Made by a program: the position numbers and the translations under genes. The notes below the pieces were generated by a model. The model saw only the letters and a program-made list of their open reading frames with translations, was not told where the DNA came from and searched no databases. A DNA stretch of 41,784 nucleotides from an uncultured bacterium (GTDB lineage Bacteria; Desulfobacterota; Desulfobaccia; Desulfobaccales; 0-14-0-80-60-11), in NCBI GenBank assembly GCA_937943575.1, contig CALEAV010000032.1, positions 1 to 41,784 on the forward strand, in the 5' to 3' direction. Below, piece by piece: positions 9,538-40,133 of this stretch; position 1 is the first letter of the stretch, and every line of letters starts with the position of its first letter.

Positions 9538-10488
9538 TCAGGCCTGGGCGGTGAGCCGGTCCAGGAAGCGGCGCACATTTTCCAGCAGCCGCAGGTCGAA
9601 TTCGGAGCCGTGAGCGCCGGAGTAGAGCATGCAGGCCAGGGCTTTGGCCGGACTTAAGGGGGGGCGCCAGGGCCGGACCGAGGTGAGGGCCTCAAAGGTG
9701 TCCAGGATTCTCAGCAGCCGGGCGTAAGGGTGGATGGCGGCCAGGGGCAGGCCCAGGGGGTAGCCGCTGCCGTCGGCGTTTTCATGGTGTTGGGCCACCA
9801 TGAGGAAGACCTTCCCCGGGAGCTGGGGGAAGGGGGTCAAAAGCTGCACCCCGCCCTGGGGGTGGCGGCGCAGGAGCTCCAGTTCGTCGCTGTTCAAGGG
9901 GCCGCTCTTCTCCCAGGCGCCGGGGAGGGCGGTCATCCCCAGGTCGTGGAGGAGGGCGCCCAGCCCCAGGGTGCGGGCGGCGGTCTCCGGCCAGGAATTA
10001 TGGCGGGCGTAGCTGAGGGCGAGGAGGCTGACATTGAGGCAATGGCCCGCCAGGCCGGCGTCCAGGCGGCGGAAACTGAGGGCCAGTGCGCCCAGACGGG
10101 GGGCGGCGGCCAGCAGGCGGTAGAGGGTGCCCACCAGGTCCCGGGCCACATCCAACAAGGGGCCGGAGCGGCACTGAGGGGAATTATAGAACTGCCGGGT
10201 CCAGGCCAGCAGGAGGTCGTAGAGGAGCGCCCCCTTCTCCTCCGGCGAGGGCCCCTGGTCCTGCATCAGGTCCTGCATCGCCTGGCGCAGGGTCACCAGC
10301 AGGCGCTGGGAGTTGGCCTTGAGGCCGTTGGCCTCATCCCCGGCCGGCCCCTCCTCCGGGGGGAGGTTTTCTCCCGGTGCGGGCAGGCTTAAAGAGGCTT
10401 CCGGCGCCCGAACCGCTGGCAGCGTGTCCTGTCCCCACCCGGTCATCTCCGTTTTGACGCCCTCTGCCGCCGGTTCCGCCTGGCTCAT
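9538..10488 (-). CDS. HD-GYP domain protein (putative c-di-GMP phosphodiesterase)
   Basis: The protein is 316 residues. The first 85 residues are Pro/Ala/Glu-rich and probably disordered. The HD-GYP domain follows: HCLNVSLLALSYA near residue 147, HDLGM near residue 178, a later metal-site His (LLRRHPQGGVQLL), and the signature HHENADGSGYPLGLP near residue 229. These residues bind the di- or tri-iron centre that hydrolyses c-di-GMP, so the enzyme looks active. There is no receiver or sensor domain, so input would have to come through the N-terminal helices or a partner. It lies downstream of the operon coding for a PilZ-like protein and a MinD-type ATPase, separated by 281 bases, which supports a common c-di-GMP theme. 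Confidence 0.88.
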   Translation of the reverse strand: MSQAEPAAEGVKTEMTGWGQDTLPAVRAPEASLSLPAPGENLPPEEGPAGDEANGLKANSQRLLVTLRQAMQDLMQDQGPSPEEKGALLYDLLLAWTRQFYNSPQCRSGPLLDVARDLVGTLYRLLAAAPRLGALALSFRRLDAGLAGHCLNVSLLALSYARHNSWPETAARTLGLGALLHDLGMTALPGAWEKSGPLNSDELELLRRHPQGGVQLLTPFPQLPGKVFLMVAQHHENADGSGYPLGLPLAAIHPYARLLRILDTFEALTSVRPWRPPLSPAKALACMLYSGAHGSEFDLRLLENVRRFLDRLTAQA

Positions 10489-10769: not shown

Positions 10770-11777
10770 TTACGCCGGGGCCCGGCGCCAGAGGCGGGCC
10801 ATGGTGCCCACGGGGCGAGGTTCCCCGGTCTGCGCGGCCTCCTCCGGGGGGAGGGAGGATCCGGGCAGACTGGCCCGGGCCACCGATTCGGCGATCTGTT
10901 CCAGATCTTTCACCGCCTGGCCCTTTTCCTGACGGAGCGGGAAGGGCATCATCTGGTTGACCGCCGCCTCCACGGCCGGATCAAAGGAGAGGCGACCCAG
11001 GATGCGGGGGGAGATGCTGAGGAAAGAGGTGCAGACCCGCTCCACGATGGCCCCGGCCTGGAAGTCCCGGTCGCTCTTCACCATGTTCACCACCAGGTTG
11101 ACTTTGAACTGCCGGAGCAGGTCCACCAGCCGTTGGTGGCTCTCCGGCTCCGTCTGCTTGAGCTTGAGGAGGACGTCATGCATGGACCTCACCTGCTCGG
11201 GACTGTCCTTGAGGTCCGTCTGCTGCAGGAGATCCAGCACCCGGGGGTGTTTGGCGAATTCCCGGGAGATCTGGCGGTAGAGGCCGCTTTTGATGAAGCC
11301 GTAGACATTCTGCAGCGAGGTGGCCTGGCTGGTGAGGACGCAGATCTTCCCGGGCGAGTAATTGAAGAAATCCAGGACGTTGAAGGAGGTGCCGGCGCCC
11401 AGGTCCAGGAGCACCAGGTCGGCCGGCAGATCCTCGATCTGGTTGAGGAGGCGCACCTTCTGGGCGTAGGTGGGGTTGGCCGCCCCCAGGATGTCGTCGG
11501 CGCCGCAGATGAGGCCGATGCCGGCGATCTGGGTTTCGATGATGAGATCCTCGAGCCGGCCGACCCGTTTCAGCAGGAAGTCCTCCAGGGTGAGGGGCGG
11601 GTAGCGCACCCCCATGAGGGTGTGGAGGTTGGCGCCGCCCAGGTCGGCGTCCACCAGGATGACCTTCTTGCCCAGGCGGGCCAGGCAGATCCCCAGGCCC
11701 AGGGTGAAGACGCTCTTGCCCACCCCGCCTTTGCCGCCGCCGATGCTCCACAATTTTCTTGTGCTCAGCTCCTGCAT
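10770..11777 (-). CDS. MinD/FlhG-family ParA-like ATPase
   Basis: The protein is about 335 residues from ATG at 11777, chosen because GGGA sits 6 bases upstream; a GTG lies 6 bases earlier. The deviant Walker A motif GGKGGVGKSVFT is near residue 14, VDADLGGANLHTLMG is the switch region, and LVLLDLGAG is Walker B. The family dimerises on ATP and positions cell machinery; FlhG/FleN-like members count flagella or control pili. The C-terminus has no clear amphipathic MinD membrane helix and ends Arg-rich. No minC, minE, flhF or flagellar gene is adjacent. It is the last gene of a run with a PilZ-like protein (33-39 bases upstream) and a Prim-Pol-like protein. Confidence 0.88.
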   Translation of the reverse strand: MQELSTRKLWSIGGGKGGVGKSVFTLGLGICLARLGKKVILVDADLGGANLHTLMGVRYPPLTLEDFLLKRVGRLEDLIIETQIAGIGLICGADDILGAANPTYAQKVRLLNQIEDLPADLVLLDLGAGTSFNVLDFFNYSPGKICVLTSQATSLQNVYGFIKSGLYRQISREFAKHPRVLDLLQQTDLKDSPEQVRSMHDVLLKLKQTEPESHQRLVDLLRQFKVNLVVNMVKSDRDFQAGAIVERVCTSFLSISPRILGRLSFDPAVEAAVNQMMPFPLRQEKGQAVKDLEQIAESVARASLPGSSLPPEEAAQTGEPRPVGTMARLWRRAPA

Positions 11778-11816
11778 CGCCACTCCCTTTGCCCTTTGGG
11801 GCCCGGACAGCTGCTC

Positions 11817-12413
11817 TTACGGCCGGGAGGCGGCCCGGGAGCGCCACAGGGACCAGATGCTTTTGGCGGCCATCATCAGACAGCCATAGAGGGCCATGAT
11901 GCAGCCATACAGCTTCAGGGTGTCCGGGCCGGCCAGGTACAGGGTGGTGCCGGCGGCCACCGCGCCCACTCCCACCAGGTAGGCGGCCTGTTCCGCCACC
12001 TGGGCCGGGCGGCTGCGATGCACCTCATCCCAGGCGTCCCACAGCTCCTTGAGGTCCCGGGGAAACGACCCCATATGCTCCTCCAGCACCCGGCGCACCT
12101 CCAGGTCCGGTTCCTTGAGTTCGAAGGCCACGATGAAGCCCTGGGCCGCGGGCCGGGTCCAGGAGATGCGGCCGGGAATGTCCCGCAGGGGGGAGGAGTC
12201 GGCGGGGACGGTGAGCACGGCTTCCCGCCCGCCCAGGGAGAACAGAGCCGACGGGGCGTCGTTGTCGGGGACCTCCAACAGCGCCCCGGTGGCTGACAGG
12301 CTGTTGATCCGCACCGGGAGCTGGAGGGGCTCCCGGCCCCGTCCCCGGGGGGTCACGGAGAGGATGAGGTCCCCCGTTCCCCGGGAGCTCTTCGGGCCAC
12401 GTTCCTCGCTCAT
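11817..12413 (-). CDS. PilZ-like domain protein with C-terminal membrane segments
   Basis: The protein is about 198 residues. The start at 12413 overlaps the previous stop (ATGA), so translation is coupled. The N-terminal 110 residues look like a PilZ barrel: an Arg-rich stretch (PRGRGREPLQLP) followed by NSLSATGALLEV, which fits the D/NxSxxG part of the c-di-GMP site, and a final strand FIVAFEL. The exact RxxxR spacing is not canonical, so nucleotide binding is inferred. Two hydrophobic segments near the C-terminus (YLVGVGAVAAGTTLYLAG and KLYGCIMALYGCLMMAAKSI) would anchor it in the inner membrane. It sits between the Prim-Pol-like gene and the MinD-like ATPase. Confidence 0.65.
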   Translation of the reverse strand: MSEERGPKSSRGTGDLILSVTPRGRGREPLQLPVRINSLSATGALLEVPDNDAPSALFSLGGREAVLTVPADSSPLRDIPGRISWTRPAAQGFIVAFELKEPDLEVRRVLEEHMGSFPRDLKELWDAWDEVHRSRPAQVAEQAAYLVGVGAVAAGTTLYLAGPDTLKLYGCIMALYGCLMMAAKSIWSLWRSRAASRP

Positions 12414-13837
12414 TCCTGCCACCACGATCGGTACCATCCCTTTTTTGGCTTTTTGGCGGTCAGCTGCTGGCGGAGGTATTCCAGCTCCGCGGTCCACTGG
12501 CTCTCCAGCTTGTCCCTCAGGGCCTTGTTCTGCCGGTTCTCCCGCCGGAAGATCTCCTGCAGGGCCCCCAGCTTGCCCAGCTCGTAGATCATGGCCTCAT
12601 AGCGCCGGCGCTCCACCAGCAGGTTTTCCTGGGTCAGGCGCAGGATCTCCTGCCAGGAGGGCGGGGCCGGGCCCGCCGGTTCGGGCCGGGAATGGCCGTT
12701 GCCCCCGGGAGGGGGGGGCGCCATGCCGGCGGCCGGAGGTGTGGCCTCCGGGGCGGTGGGAACCGGAGCCTCCGGGTCCCCCGTGGCCGGAGCCCGGGCC
12801 TCGGCCTCCCGGGCCGGGGCGAAGCCCCCGGTCAGCGGCTGCACTCCCGAGAGGGCCTGCTTCACCAGCTCCTCCAGGTGGGCCGCCTTCTCCCAGGACT
12901 CCCGGGAATCCCCCAGGGGCGCATGCCACAGGAGCCCCAAAAGCACTGCCGGATCCTCCAGCCCCACGGCCCGGGCCTCGGAGAGCAGGGTGCGATAGTA
13001 GGCCTCAAAGGACACGGCCGGGGCCAGCAGGGCCTGGAGAATGCGGGGATGCGGCTGGATGAGGGGGTAAATCCGGCTCCAGGCCAGGACCTCGTCCAGG
13101 GGTTTGGCCTTCTCCGACTTAAGGCGCGGGGCATGGTCGGTGATGAAACGGCACAGGGCCGGAGAGGGCCGGGTGGGGGGGCTCTCCCAGGGCGGCCGCA
13201 GCCACCGGAGGTTGGTCTGCAGCTGGGGGTCCATGGAAGGCGGCGCCAGCACCAGGCCGCCCTCCCCGAAGATCATGATCTGGAAGCCCTCCAGGAAAAA
13301 GGACGACGGCGGCTGCCAGCCCTTGGGCAGGGTGTAGTAGTGCTGCTCCCGTTCCAGACCCACTTCCGCCACACAGCCCGACCCCCACTCCCCCCGGCGG
13401 TCGAAGGGGGGGCGGCTCTCCTCCCGGTGGACCTCCACCACCAATAACCGGGACGGGGCGCCGGTGCGGATGCCCAGATTCACCTGATGCCCTTCCAGGC
13501 TCCAATCCGTCAGCCTCGCCGCCCAGACCTCCTCCCCCTCCCGGAAATCCAGGTCAAAGGCGGGTTCCCCCCGCAGATTCACCGCCACCAGCTCCCAGCC
13601 CATTTTGCGGTACTTCCCGGCGTATTGGATGAGGGTGTCGCTGTAGTCCAGGTTCCGTTTCAAATGCAGGATGCGTTCCAGCTCCTCCTCCCTCAGGCCG
13701 GAGAAGTTGCGTTTGGGGGCTGAGCGCGGGCCGCTGCCGGCCTTGGCGCCTCCCCCCCGGCCGCCGCCTTCGGCCCCCTCGCCGCCCGTTTCCTTGGGGA
13801 GGGCCTGGCCGCCCTGCATCAGGAAGGTGTCCTCCAC
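12410..13837 (-). CDS. Degenerate Prim-Pol (archaeo-eukaryotic primase)-like protein with coiled-coil C-terminus
   Basis: The protein is 475 residues from GTG at 13837 (GAGGA upstream). After a disordered Gly/Ala leader, residues 62-205 can be laid along the bifunctional primase/polymerase N-terminal domain of the mobile-element protein at 37660-38529. YAGKYRKMGWELVAV matches YARRGWRVLPL, NLGIRTG matches NVGVATG, LLVVEVHRE stands where LLVVDVDPR should be, QHYY matches WHLY, and GEGGLVLAPPS matches GPGGYVVAPPS. The two metal-binding Asp residues are therefore Glu135 and His137, and the third Asp is lost, so polymerase activity is unlikely. A Pro-rich linker and a C-terminal coiled coil (about residues 400-460) follow. 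It is the first gene of the operon with the PilZ-like and MinD-like proteins. Confidence 0.6.
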   Translation of the reverse strand: MEDTFLMQGGQALPKETGGEGAEGGGRGGGAKAGSGPRSAPKRNFSGLREEELERILHLKRNLDYSDTLIQYAGKYRKMGWELVAVNLRGEPAFDLDFREGEEVWAARLTDWSLEGHQVNLGIRTGAPSRLLVVEVHREESRPPFDRRGEWGSGCVAEVGLEREQHYYTLPKGWQPPSSFFLEGFQIMIFGEGGLVLAPPSMDPQLQTNLRWLRPPWESPPTRPSPALCRFITDHAPRLKSEKAKPLDEVLAWSRIYPLIQPHPRILQALLAPAVSFEAYYRTLLSEARAVGLEDPAVLLGLLWHAPLGDSRESWEKAAHLEELVKQALSGVQPLTGGFAPAREAEARAPATGDPEAPVPTAPEATPPAAGMAPPPPGGNGHSRPEPAGPAPPSWQEILRLTQENLLVERRRYEAMIYELGKLGALQEIFRRENRQNKALRDKLESQWTAELEYLRQQLTAKKPKKGWYRSWWQE

Positions 13838-37457: not shown

Positions 37458-37673
37458 ATGCAAAGCCCATTGTTGACGGCCCAGGAGGCCGCAGCCTACC
37501 TACGCATCAGCCTGTTCACCTTGCGAGGCTGGACCAGCCGGGGGCTCTTCCCCGTGGTGAAAATTGGGCGGCGGGCCCTTTACCGGCTGGCGGAGGTGGA
37601 GCTGGTGGCCAAAGAGGGTCTTGAGAGCCTTACAGCCCGGAGCAAGCACGGGAGGGGCCATGGTAGCAACTAA
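37458..37673 (+). CDS. AlpA/excisionase-like helix-turn-helix protein
   Basis: The protein is 71 residues from ATG at 37458, preceded by AAAGGAG; an in-frame start 18 bases earlier is less good. The segment LLTAQEAAAYLRISLFTLRG followed by WTSRGLFPVVKIGRRALYRL is the MerR-like winged HTH of the HTH_17/AlpA/Xis family, with the GRR wing. Such proteins act as excisionases or activators of element genes. Its end overlaps the Prim-Pol start by 14 bases, indicating one transcript and a role in switching on replication and/or excision. The C-terminus is basic (RSKHGRGHGSN). Confidence 0.85.
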   Translation: MQSPLLTAQEAAAYLRISLFTLRGWTSRGLFPVVKIGRRALYRLAEVELVAKEGLESLTARSKHGRGHGSN

Positions 37674-38529
37674 CAACAATCTGACCAACGTGGGGGCGGC
37701 GGCCTTGGGTTACGCCCGGCGTGGCTGGCGGGTTCTGCCATTGTGGTGGCCGGCCAAGGGTGGCTGCGCCTGTGGCGGTGGGTGTGGAAATCCTGCCAAG
37801 CACCCTATGGCCAAACTGGCCCCGCGCGGCGTCTACAGCGCCACCATAGATCCAGCAGTTCTCCGCCGGTGGTGGCGGACAGCCCCCTGGGCCAATGTGG
37901 GGGTGGCCACCGGGGGCGGCTCCGGGTTGCTTGTTGTAGACGTTGACCCCAGAAGCGGCGGGGCCCTGGAGCGGCTGCCTGGACCGGTGCCCACCACTCC
38001 CACCGTCCGCACCGGCGGGGGAGGCTGGCATCTCTATCTGGCCTGGCCGGAAGGGGTAACGCGTCTTCCCCAGGCCCTGCCCGGCTGCCCCGGGGTGGAC
38101 CTGAAGGGCCCCGGCGGTTACGTGGTGGCCCCACCATCCCGGCACCTGTCCGGCCGGGCCTACGAATGGCTGGTGCCGCCGGACGTCCCCCTGGCTCCGC
38201 CCCCGGCCTGGCTCCTGGAGGCCATCCGGCCCTCACCCCGCCCCGCCTGGCAGCCCCTCCCGGGAAGCGGCGGGGCCCATGGCACCCCCTACGGCCGGGC
38301 GGCCCTGCGCCAGGAGTTGGCCCGCCTGGCCCACACGCCGGTGGGAAACCGGAACAACGCCTTGAATCGAGCCGCCTTTGCCCTGGGACGCCTGGTGGCC
38401 GCCAGCCACCTGGACGAGGGGACGGTGGTGGGTCTGCTGACCTCTCTCGGTTACCAGATCGGCTTGGGCGGTCGGGAAACGGAGAAAACCACCCAAAGCG
38501 GCCTTACTGCCGGGCTGCGGGAGGTTTAG
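37660..38529 (+). CDS. Bifunctional DNA primase/polymerase (Prim-Pol, AEP family)
   Basis: The protein is 289 residues from ATG at 37660 with GGAGG in front. The AEP catalytic set is intact: LLVVDVDPRSGG with D94 and D96, WHLYL with H124, and GVDLKGPGGYVVAPPS with D147. A Cys-rich insert, GCACGGGCGNPAKHPMAK (about residues 35-52), is typical of phage and plasmid Prim-Pols and may bind zinc. The C-terminal part (PVGNRNNALNRAAFALGRLV, then GLGGRETEKTTQSGLTAGL) matches the helical accessory domain that follows Prim-Pol in element replication proteins. It would synthesise primers de novo and extend them for element replication. The helicase-like ATPase follows two bases after its stop. Confidence 0.9.
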   Translation: MVATNNNLTNVGAAALGYARRGWRVLPLWWPAKGGCACGGGCGNPAKHPMAKLAPRGVYSATIDPAVLRRWWRTAPWANVGVATGGGSGLLVVDVDPRSGGALERLPGPVPTTPTVRTGGGGWHLYLAWPEGVTRLPQALPGCPGVDLKGPGGYVVAPPSRHLSGRAYEWLVPPDVPLAPPPAWLLEAIRPSPRPAWQPLPGSGGAHGTPYGRAALRQELARLAHTPVGNRNNALNRAAFALGRLVAASHLDEGTVVGLLTSLGYQIGLGGRETEKTTQSGLTAGLREV

Positions 38530-38531
38530 CC

Positions 38532-40133
38532 ATGACGGAAAAACTTAAAGCCCTCTTCGCGGCCCTGGGCGGCCTCCGCAAGGACCTGCCCGAGGAGGAG
38601 GCCAAGGCCTTCCTCCGCCATGCCCTGCCCCTTTTCTTGGACCTGAGTCCCACGGAAGTGGTGGACGCCCTGGTGTGGCTGAAAGAGCGCACCACCCTGA
38701 GCAGATCCTGGCTGCGGGCCTTTAAAAAGGAGATCAAAGAAGCCCTGGCTAAAAATAGGGCACAACCAACCAACCCAGCGGGTTCAGCTCATGACACCCA
38801 CGATCGGCAGGCGCTTTGGGAAGCGGCAAAACCACTTTGGGAGTCACCTTCCGTTTTGGACTGCGCTTTGGAAGCCTTGGCTAAACTTGGCTTAGTAAAC
38901 CAGCACCGGGAGGCGGCCTTGCTCTATTTAGCGGTGACTTCCCGCATTTATACCCCCGTGAACGTAGTGGTAAAGGGTGCTTCCAGCGGCGGAAAGTCAT
39001 TTTTGACCGCCACTGTGTTGCGGCTTTTTCCAAAGACCGCCTATTATGAGCTTACCGCCATCAGTGAGCGGGCCTTGGCTTACTCTGAAGAGACGTTGGC
39101 GCACCGCTTTCTGGTATTATACGAGGCGGCCGGATTAGGAGGCGAATTCGCCCAGTATTTGATTCGCAGTCTGTTGTCCGAAGGTCGCTTGCGCTATGAG
39201 ACGGTGGAAAAAGCTCCCGACGGGAAATTACGGCCGCGGTTGATTGAACGGGAAGGGCCCACCGGTTTCATCTCTCCCACCACTGCCGTTCAGCTTCACC
39301 GTGAAAACGAGACCCGCTACTTAAGTCTCGAAGCCGACGATTCTCCCACCCAAACCGCAGCTATCCTGGCCCGCCAAGGGCGGGAGGCAGCAAGCCCGAG
39401 TGAACCCACGGAAATTGATCTCACGCCTTTCCAGGCGTTCCAGGTCTGGTTGGAACTTTCTCCCCCTGCCGTGGTCATCCCTTATGCCGAAGGGATTGCG
39501 GCCAAGTGCGATCCCCAGGCCGTCCGATTGCGCCGGGACTTTCCGCAGGTGCTCACCTTGATCAAAACCCATGCCGCCCTGCATGGACACCGCCGCCCTT
39601 TGGACGAGCACGGGCGGGTGCTGGCCATACAGGAGGATTACGAGGTGGTGTATCGGCTGGTGGCCGATATTCTCGCCTTCGGCACCGGCGCAAAGATCGA
39701 CCCTAAAGTCCGGGAGCTCGTGGCGGCGGTGGAGCGTCTGGCGGGAGAGGACGGGGTGACAGTGAAGCAGGTGGCCCGGGAGATGGGGGTTCATGAAAGC
39801 AGCGCCTGGCGCCTGGCCCAAAAGGCCCTGAAAGGCGGATTCCTACATAACCTGGAAACCCGGCCGCGAGCCCCGGCCAAATTGGTGGTGAAAGAGCCCC
39901 TCCCTCCGGATGGGGTGGTCCTGCCAGCGCCGGAAGTAATTTTTACCCAAAAGGTTAACAGTCCCCCTCCGGAAAACCTGAAAACTGCCCAAACCACCTC
40001 TAAAACCCCGACCAACCCTGAATCTCAGGTTTTCAGGGGGGGTGAAAACGTAGGGCAAACCTTTGAAAACCAGGAAGATTGGCTCGATGACCTGCTGTCT
40101 CGCTTATTTGAAACCGGAGAGGTGCGCTTATGA
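38532..40133 (+). CDS. P-loop ATPase, helicase-like replication protein of the element
   Basis: The protein is 533 residues from ATG at 38532. Walker A is VVVKGASSGGKSFLTATVL (GASSGGKS at about 149-156) and a Walker B-like strand is RFLVLYEAAG near residue 192, with the catalytic Glu. This combination, SSGGKS with LYEAAG, belongs to a group of phage and plasmid helicase-like ATPases paired with Prim-Pol. A winged-helix segment, GVTVKQVAREMGVHESSAWR (about residues 410-440), probably binds the origin. The N-terminal 100 residues are helical (PEEEAKAFLRHALPLFLDLS). The C-terminal tail is low-complexity Thr/Pro/Asn. It likely unwinds DNA as a hexamer with the Prim-Pol. It overlaps the next gene by four bases. 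Confidence 0.8.
   Translation: MTEKLKALFAALGGLRKDLPEEEAKAFLRHALPLFLDLSPTEVVDALVWLKERTTLSRSWLRAFKKEIKEALAKNRAQPTNPAGSAHDTHDRQALWEAAKPLWESPSVLDCALEALAKLGLVNQHREAALLYLAVTSRIYTPVNVVVKGASSGGKSFLTATVLRLFPKTAYYELTAISERALAYSEETLAHRFLVLYEAAGLGGEFAQYLIRSLLSEGRLRYETVEKAPDGKLRPRLIEREGPTGFISPTTAVQLHRENETRYLSLEADDSPTQTAAILARQGREAASPSEPTEIDLTPFQAFQVWLELSPPAVVIPYAEGIAAKCDPQAVRLRRDFPQVLTLIKTHAALHGHRRPLDEHGRVLAIQEDYEVVYRLVADILAFGTGAKIDPKVRELVAAVERLAGEDGVTVKQVAREMGVHESSAWRLAQKALKGGFLHNLETRPRAPAKLVVKEPLPPDGVVLPAPEVIFTQKVNSPPPENLKTAQTTSKTPTNPESQVFRGGENVGQTFENQEDWLDDLLSRLFETGEVRL

Follow-up and report, generated by a model that had tools for sequence, protein, structure and literature searches.

AEP/Prim-Pol domains are known as enzymes of replication, repair, and defence; they are DNA-binding proteins and are typical of phages and plasmids. 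MinD-type ATPases alternate between ATP-bound association with the membrane (or DNA) and release, and adaptors set the place and timing of this cycle. In the cellulose secretion system of E. coli, BcsE is a catalytically incompetent GGDEF* protein that binds BcsQ, an ATPase of the MinD family, as well as c-di-GMP; BcsF, the product of the gene immediately downstream, recruits BcsE to the membrane (PMC7439463). Among open-licence papers, literature searches linking Prim-Pol to PilZ or to pseudoenzymes, or AEP to MinD, retrieved nothing relevant. Here, a Prim-Pol-like protein is described from the window, the whole stretch of 41,784 nucleotides that was analyzed, and its fold, its lost residues, and its operon suggest that a replication enzyme has been turned into a regulatory adaptor.

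The pseudo-Prim-Pol protein (PP) is 475 aa in length and is encoded on the minus strand at 12410..13837, as indicated by the ORF, the Pfam family PF09250, the AlphaFold model, and fold matches. The ORF starts with GTG, with GAGG seven bases upstream, and this start is conserved in two congeners. PP consists of a Prim-Pol-like domain, a helical domain, a disordered linker, a single long C-terminal helix, and a KKGWYRSWWQE tail. The helical domain (residues 246-333; 12839..13102, minus strand), recognized with AlphaFold and with NrS-1 alignments running to residue 333, lies where NrS-1 Prim-Pol has its helical subdomain. The long helix (residues 395-461; 12455..12655, minus strand), predicted by AlphaFold, likely forms a coiled coil. 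The pLDDT of the single-chain model is around 90 or above across most of the core.

PP is a genuine Prim-Pol (AEP) homolog. It matches PF09250 over residues 75-221 with the E-value 9.9e-8 (33 bits; cut-off 22.8 bits), and two distant paralogues score better, with the E-values 4.5e-10 and 3.5e-9 (37.7-40.6 bits). In the reverse search, a PP family profile of 31 members recovers the Prim-Pol of the integrated element in the window (E-value 1.5e-7) and also matches phage-type Prim-Pols of related genomes with E-values of about 1e-7 to 1e-11. The profile-profile alignment of the PP family with six ordinary Prim-Pols using HHalign gives a probability of 97-98% and E-values of 1e-10 to 3e-12, and the motifs of the two correspond one to one. 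The top nine Foldseek matches of the PP model are all Prim-Pol or AEP primases (best E-value 6.4e-5), the first being NrS-1 Prim-Pol and pRN1 ORF904 (6e-5 to 2.8e-4). With VIA-align, the AEP/Prim-Pol fold is placed at residues 64-241 (13115..13648, minus strand), and the core aligns with pRN1 ORF904 (1rni) over 167 residues with Z 11.6 and rmsd 3.9, well above unrelated matches. The hmmsearch of PDB sequences with the PP family profile returned just one chance match, BpuSI (E-value 1.3); the direct search was unproductive because the relation is too distant, and Pfam, HHalign, and fold comparison were needed. PHROGs gave no match for the window PP and weak DNA-primase matches for two paralogues.

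The integrated element lies at 37564-40133 on the plus strand and encodes an ordinary active-type Prim-Pol (DVD, GGGGWH, VDLK) beside a putative AAA/HTH protein. The translations of two 784-aa primase-helicase ORFs from two genera (L098 in G021 and L099 in G019) look identical over the stretch read, which may reflect recent mobile-element transfer or contamination. Many PP paralogues (L050, L052, L042, L045, and L057) share a C-terminal segment of ~55 residues, NPDLA..KVQML.FCLKNYI..NPEN.GL.F.EKL..A..MAR.FL; the two examined lack a clear match in Pfam.

The metal-binding acidic positions of Prim-Pols correspond to E135, H137, and M188 in the window PP. In the alignment with ordinary Prim-Pols, motif I reads E135-V136-H137 instead of D-x-D (13427..13435, minus strand) and the metal site is lost. 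Motif II is E164-Q-H166 in the family alignment (13340..13348, minus strand). The motif III strand, IMIFGEGGLVLAPPS (13235..13279, minus strand), has M188 in the position of the catalytic Asp and keeps GG and APPS. The first triad position is E in 27 of the 31 members and K or R in the other four; the second is non-acidic in 30/31, with H in 8/31 and otherwise A, R, N, T, C, P, or E; the third is D or E in 0/31. The complete triad is thus present in 0/31 members, and the second position of motif I as well as motif III drift freely across the family. As a control, seven sequences of ordinary Prim-Pols, drawn from related genomes as well as the window itself and including two that look identical, all retain DxD, GGGxxH, and xD[ILF][KR]...APPS. 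E164 and H166 are each kept in 30/31 PP members, a single copy lacking both, while W151 is kept in 29/31 and S129 in 28/31. That these four residues are nearly invariant despite the loss of the triad suggests a constrained pocket, not decay. Judged from established AEP chemistry, it is very unlikely that PP still catalyzes by the known metal-dependent mechanism.

These results agree with much of the first-pass annotation, which had read PP as a catalytically dead fold with the motif order of the element Prim-Pol and had proposed structure prediction with a Foldseek comparison. The predicted fold is indeed that of AEP/Prim-Pol, the motif order is borne out by the one-to-one placement and the PF09250 match, and the loss of the triad extends to all 31 members. 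The third Asp is gone and the GG..APPS strand is kept, as claimed. The replacement of DxD by ExH holds for the window, and its E holds family-wide, but the H is not a family feature.

On the minus strand of the window, the genes are ordered PP, PilZ-like protein (198 aa; 11817..12413), MinD/FlhG-type ATPase (337 aa; 10770..11783), and HD-GYP phosphodiesterase (316 aa; 9538..10488). The PP and PilZ-like genes overlap by 4 bases (ATGA), the gap between the PilZ-like and MinD genes is 33 bases, and the HD-GYP gene follows 281 bases after MinD. The HD-GYP protein, recognized from its ORF and Pfam (E-value 3e-28), has the canonical HD...HHExxDGxGYP motif and its gene is kept in two genera (g1 and g3); it is possibly a fourth operon member. 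Promoter prediction called none in the operon, and terminator-like sites were near expectation.

At related loci, genes were called by simple codon usage together with six-frame reading; the assemblies are drafts, and neighbours missing at contig ends were scored as undetermined. The PP-PilZ-MinD order is found in 17 loci, which cover seven genera of the window's family plus the only sister-family genome that carries PP, and four further loci have PP-MinD without PilZ. Other copies have other partners. HD-GYP follows PP directly in five copies, in one of which a J-domain/MinD fusion comes next; a membrane PAS sensor gene follows PP in one copy. The role of PP as an adaptor must therefore exceed MinD, given the copies with HD-GYP, ThiF/E1-like, or sensor partners. 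The ThiF/E1-like gene lies directly upstream of PP in two genomes (L052:56-1327 and L053:7429-8640) and resembles PADLOC E1-E2 proteins. At L049:3758-4975, a J-domain is fused to a MinD-type ATPase beside PP and HD-GYP, while L145 from another family has a separate DnaJ-HTH gene after MinD. An AAA-type ATPase of ~490 aa is encoded after MinD at six loci, such as L042:11199-12665, L045:7954-9426, and L047:2898-4415. MinD paralogues without PP are found at L155 and L156, and L157 has PilZ-MinD only.

The PilZ-like protein was identified by Pfam PilZ (E-value 7.2e-5, 23.5 bits; cut-off 22.5), by its structural model, and by PDB matches; the top VIA-align matches of the model are PilZ domains with Z up to 10.8. 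It carries a DLKELWDAWD helix and two predicted TM helices, and TM helices are predicted in the PilZ partners of most PP copies. The proteins at the PilZ position of L045, L050, and L057 are unrecognized by Pfam and were assigned by alignment, position, and the LWDxWD motif. D120, L124, and W125 are invariant in the 20 PilZ sequences compared. The c-di-GMP motifs are not conserved: the window's RGRGR agrees with RxxxR, a motif that its relatives do not keep, and [DN]xSxxG is found only in L042/L043, the window reading SLSATG. This weakens a direct interpretation of the system in terms of c-di-GMP. All three window proteins end in Trp/Arg-rich tails (KKGWYRSWWQE in PP, KSIWSLWRSR in the PilZ-like protein, and WRRAPA in MinD), which are possibly membrane-associating.

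The ATPase has an intact deviant Walker A motif, GGGKGGVGKS; it matches the Pfam MinD/ParA-type family with the E-value 1.2e-14, and its best PDB matches are FleN (1e-15). In a congener, G008, MinD is split over two frames (L063:7717-8726; residues 1-133 and 129-337), by frameshift or assembly error. MinD relatives outside the class are about 42-51% identical, and in three outside families they are preceded by a canonical PilZ protein of ~150 aa, with RxxxR, [DN]xSxxG, and the C-terminal end D-H-N/K-x-L-W-x-L-W, without a Prim-Pol-like gene. The window's PilZ-like protein has this C-terminal motif in common with them. The same MinD standing behind a canonical PilZ elsewhere indicates that PP looks added to an older PilZ-MinD pair. 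The simplest history to be drawn from this distribution would be that PP joined the pair while PilZ drifted off c-di-GMP binding. In another Desulfobacterota family (L139 and L141), HDOD, GAF/guanylate-cyclase-like, PilZ, and MinD genes lie in one apparent operon.

PP is present in 19/22 genomes of the window's family and 1/7 of the sister family (20 of 29 sampled species in the class), with up to five copies per genome. Outside the class, a search of about 377 further Desulfobacterota genomes at E-value 1e-12 detected no PP among the four candidates scored per genome. The scan of genome contigs revealed one close relative only, the 'Syntrophobacterales bacterium' MAG, HOT.CON.10. The tblastn search against phage and plasmid collections gave no match, the viral-contig scan gave one ordinary Prim-Pol, whose DVD motif is intact, and PADLOC reported nothing for the pseudo-Prim-Pol. 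In the core tree, the PP family is one fully supported clade separate from active Prim-Pols, with eight branches that largely follow the partner type.

PP and a close MinD are both present in 20 species and both absent in nine, where a close MinD is defined by a best E-value of 1e-100 or lower, reached in every carrier, the next match class being at 1e-45 or weaker. The Fisher p of this co-occurrence is about 1e-7, counted by species as if independent. The distances of PP and MinD across 18 operons are correlated (r 0.83; 0 of 10000 permutations as high), with loci treated as independent. Both tests ignore shared ancestry, and their significance is thus overstated; the pairing of paralogues within genomes (MinD of L050 with L057, and of L051 with L062) points in the same direction as the correlation. 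Purifying selection acts on the PP family: in comparisons of PP with its two closest relatives, dN/dS is 0.21-0.27 overall and 0.14-0.21 in the core. The most constrained part is residues 399-475, the region of the C-terminal helix (0.015-0.07 within the genus), and the N-terminal extension and the linker are under relaxed selection.

On balance, PP is probably a pseudo-enzyme adaptor or sensor subunit that controls, together with the membrane PilZ-like protein, the MinD-type ATPase. We infer a physical complex of the three proteins, with its membrane topology, ligand, and cargo, along the following lines. In PP, the AEP/Prim-Pol domain has lost the catalytic metal site and retains parts of the substrate cleft, and a long C-terminal helix has been acquired; in this form, PP would serve in the cytoplasm as an adaptor or sensor for a MinD-type ATPase complex bound to the membrane. 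Its PilZ-fold partner would anchor this complex in the inner membrane by a TM hairpin, and its conserved LWDxWD helix probably contacts the ATPase. The dead Prim-Pol domain may provide a second input, its former cleft taking up a ligand that is either a nucleotide or a protein, and this input could tune the recruitment of the ATPase or its ATP-driven cycling. A wider proposal is tentative and can be put forward only as a possibility: the Prim-Pol fold would have been domesticated to sense nucleotides or dinucleotides and to regulate second-messenger enzymes and ParA/MinD-type ATPases accordingly, as a signalling module that is specific to this lineage and has partners of several classes.

The observation behind the first-pass annotation is confirmed, and its interpretation in part: the fold, the loss of the triad, and the operon stand, and the suggested c-di-GMP or positioning machine is less well supported. 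The neighbours it named, a PilZ-like membrane protein and a MinD-type ATPase, are borne out by Pfam, PDB matches, and predicted TM helices. The operon, whose conservation it proposed to check in Desulfobacterota, is conserved but was found in one class only, and the phylum at large does not share the three-gene arrangement. Neither of the results that it had named as refuting, an unrelated fold or the lack of a conserved operon in relatives, was obtained. For c-di-GMP, HD-GYP beside several copies and canonical PilZ before the same MinD in other lineages are favourable, but the motifs in the PilZ partner are not conserved. The sole basis of positioning is MinD family membership.

The output of the module is probably the placement or assembly of an envelope machine, for which Tad/Flp pili, and not flagella, are the leading candidate. 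Tad genes lie directly upstream of three PP copies (L050, L057, and L055), and at L042 a Flp pilin gene is found just after MinD and before the AAA-type ATPase. Tad-domain proteins are encoded in 21/22 genomes of the window's family, one of them without PP, and thus the cargo is not specified by Tad.

Several alternatives were weighed against the adaptor or sensor role. PP may still bind DNA as Prim-Pol domains do, acting as a ParB-like adaptor that links the ATPase with the nucleoid or some specific site. The retained helical domain and the ParA/MinD-type genes directly upstream of PP in three copies (L051, L061, and L062) are consistent with such a tether, but the membrane helices predicted in most PilZ partners and the lack of partition-like genes at the copies with HD-GYP or sensor partners make it unlikely. 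It is rather more doubtful that PP is a pure structural scaffold, in which the fold serves only to keep the protein stable and to make protein contacts, the long helix being the active part. The strong constraint on this helix and the free drift of the second position of motif I and of motif III would fit, but E164, H166, and W151 are nearly invariant across copies about 30-40% identical, and six PP copies are short and lack the helix. Marginally less probable again is a new enzyme, with E135, E164, and H166 in the cleft supporting some other reaction of a nucleotide or dinucleotide that needs a single metal or none; the conservation of these residues and the position of several copies next to families degrading cyclic dinucleotides speak for it, but E135 is replaced by K or R in four members, a second or third acidic ligand is conserved nowhere, and one copy lacks both E164 and H166.

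A flagellar control of number or placement of the FlhG type, with a dead Prim-Pol added, is very improbable. FleN/FlhG are the closest solved relatives of the ATPase and the window genome has FliP, but FliP is missing in 9/20 PP carriers, four of them at least 97% complete, and flagellar genes were not recognized next to the PP operon. A flagellar role was therefore rejected as a general explanation, and flagella are not the general target despite the nearness of the ATPase to FleN/FlhG. That PP is a leftover primase from a mobile element, fixed accidentally and without function, as the active-type Prim-Pol 24 kb away in the window might suggest, hardly merits consideration, and this pseudogene or relic reading was rejected on dN/dS, spread over eight branches, the conserved operon, co-occurrence, and correlated divergence, as well as on the phage and plasmid collections, which hold no similar protein.

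If PP is an adaptor or sensor subunit, a multi-copy, selected family without the metal site, encoded beside MinD ATPases, PilZ-like membrane proteins, and HD-GYP enzymes, would mean that the Prim-Pol fold is able to leave nucleic-acid synthesis for signalling or adaptor use. Compared with the Prim-Pol/AEP proteins (PF09250; pRN1 ORF904, 1rni; NrS-1), PP shares the profile match, the fold with its helical domain, the motif-II His, and the GG..APPS strand, but it differs in the triad lost in all members, the absence of a fused helicase, the long C-terminal helix, and the chromosomal signalling-type operon. FlhG/FleN are the nearest solved structures of the window ATPase, whose Walker A is intact, but ATPases of the window type are also encoded in genomes without FliP and their neighbours are PilZ-like and pseudo-Prim-Pol genes, not flagellar ones. 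TadZ/CpaE of Tad pili belong to the MinD family like the window ATPase, and some copies of the PP system adjoin Tad genes; the window ATPase of 337 aa, however, has no N-terminal receiver-like domain, its Walker A beginning near residue 14, and no CpaE match over the cut-off was obtained for it. The PilZ-MinD pair of other Desulfobacterota has the same ATPase family, preceded by a PilZ protein with C-terminal LWDxW(D/K), but this PilZ has RxxxR and [DN]xSxxG and no TM helices, and a Prim-Pol-like gene is absent. BcsE-BcsQ-BcsF is alike in outline, with a dead nucleotide-enzyme fold, a MinD-family ATPase, and an adjacent gene for a membrane partner. BcsE has a degenerate REC-GGDEF* tandem in contrast to the Prim-Pol of PP, and the resemblance is in mode, not descent. 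BcsE binds its ATPase directly, whereas the link between PP and MinD is suggested here by co-occurrence and correlated divergence. The PP system is thus a testable parallel to BcsE, and it may show how MinD-type ATPases gain new inputs.
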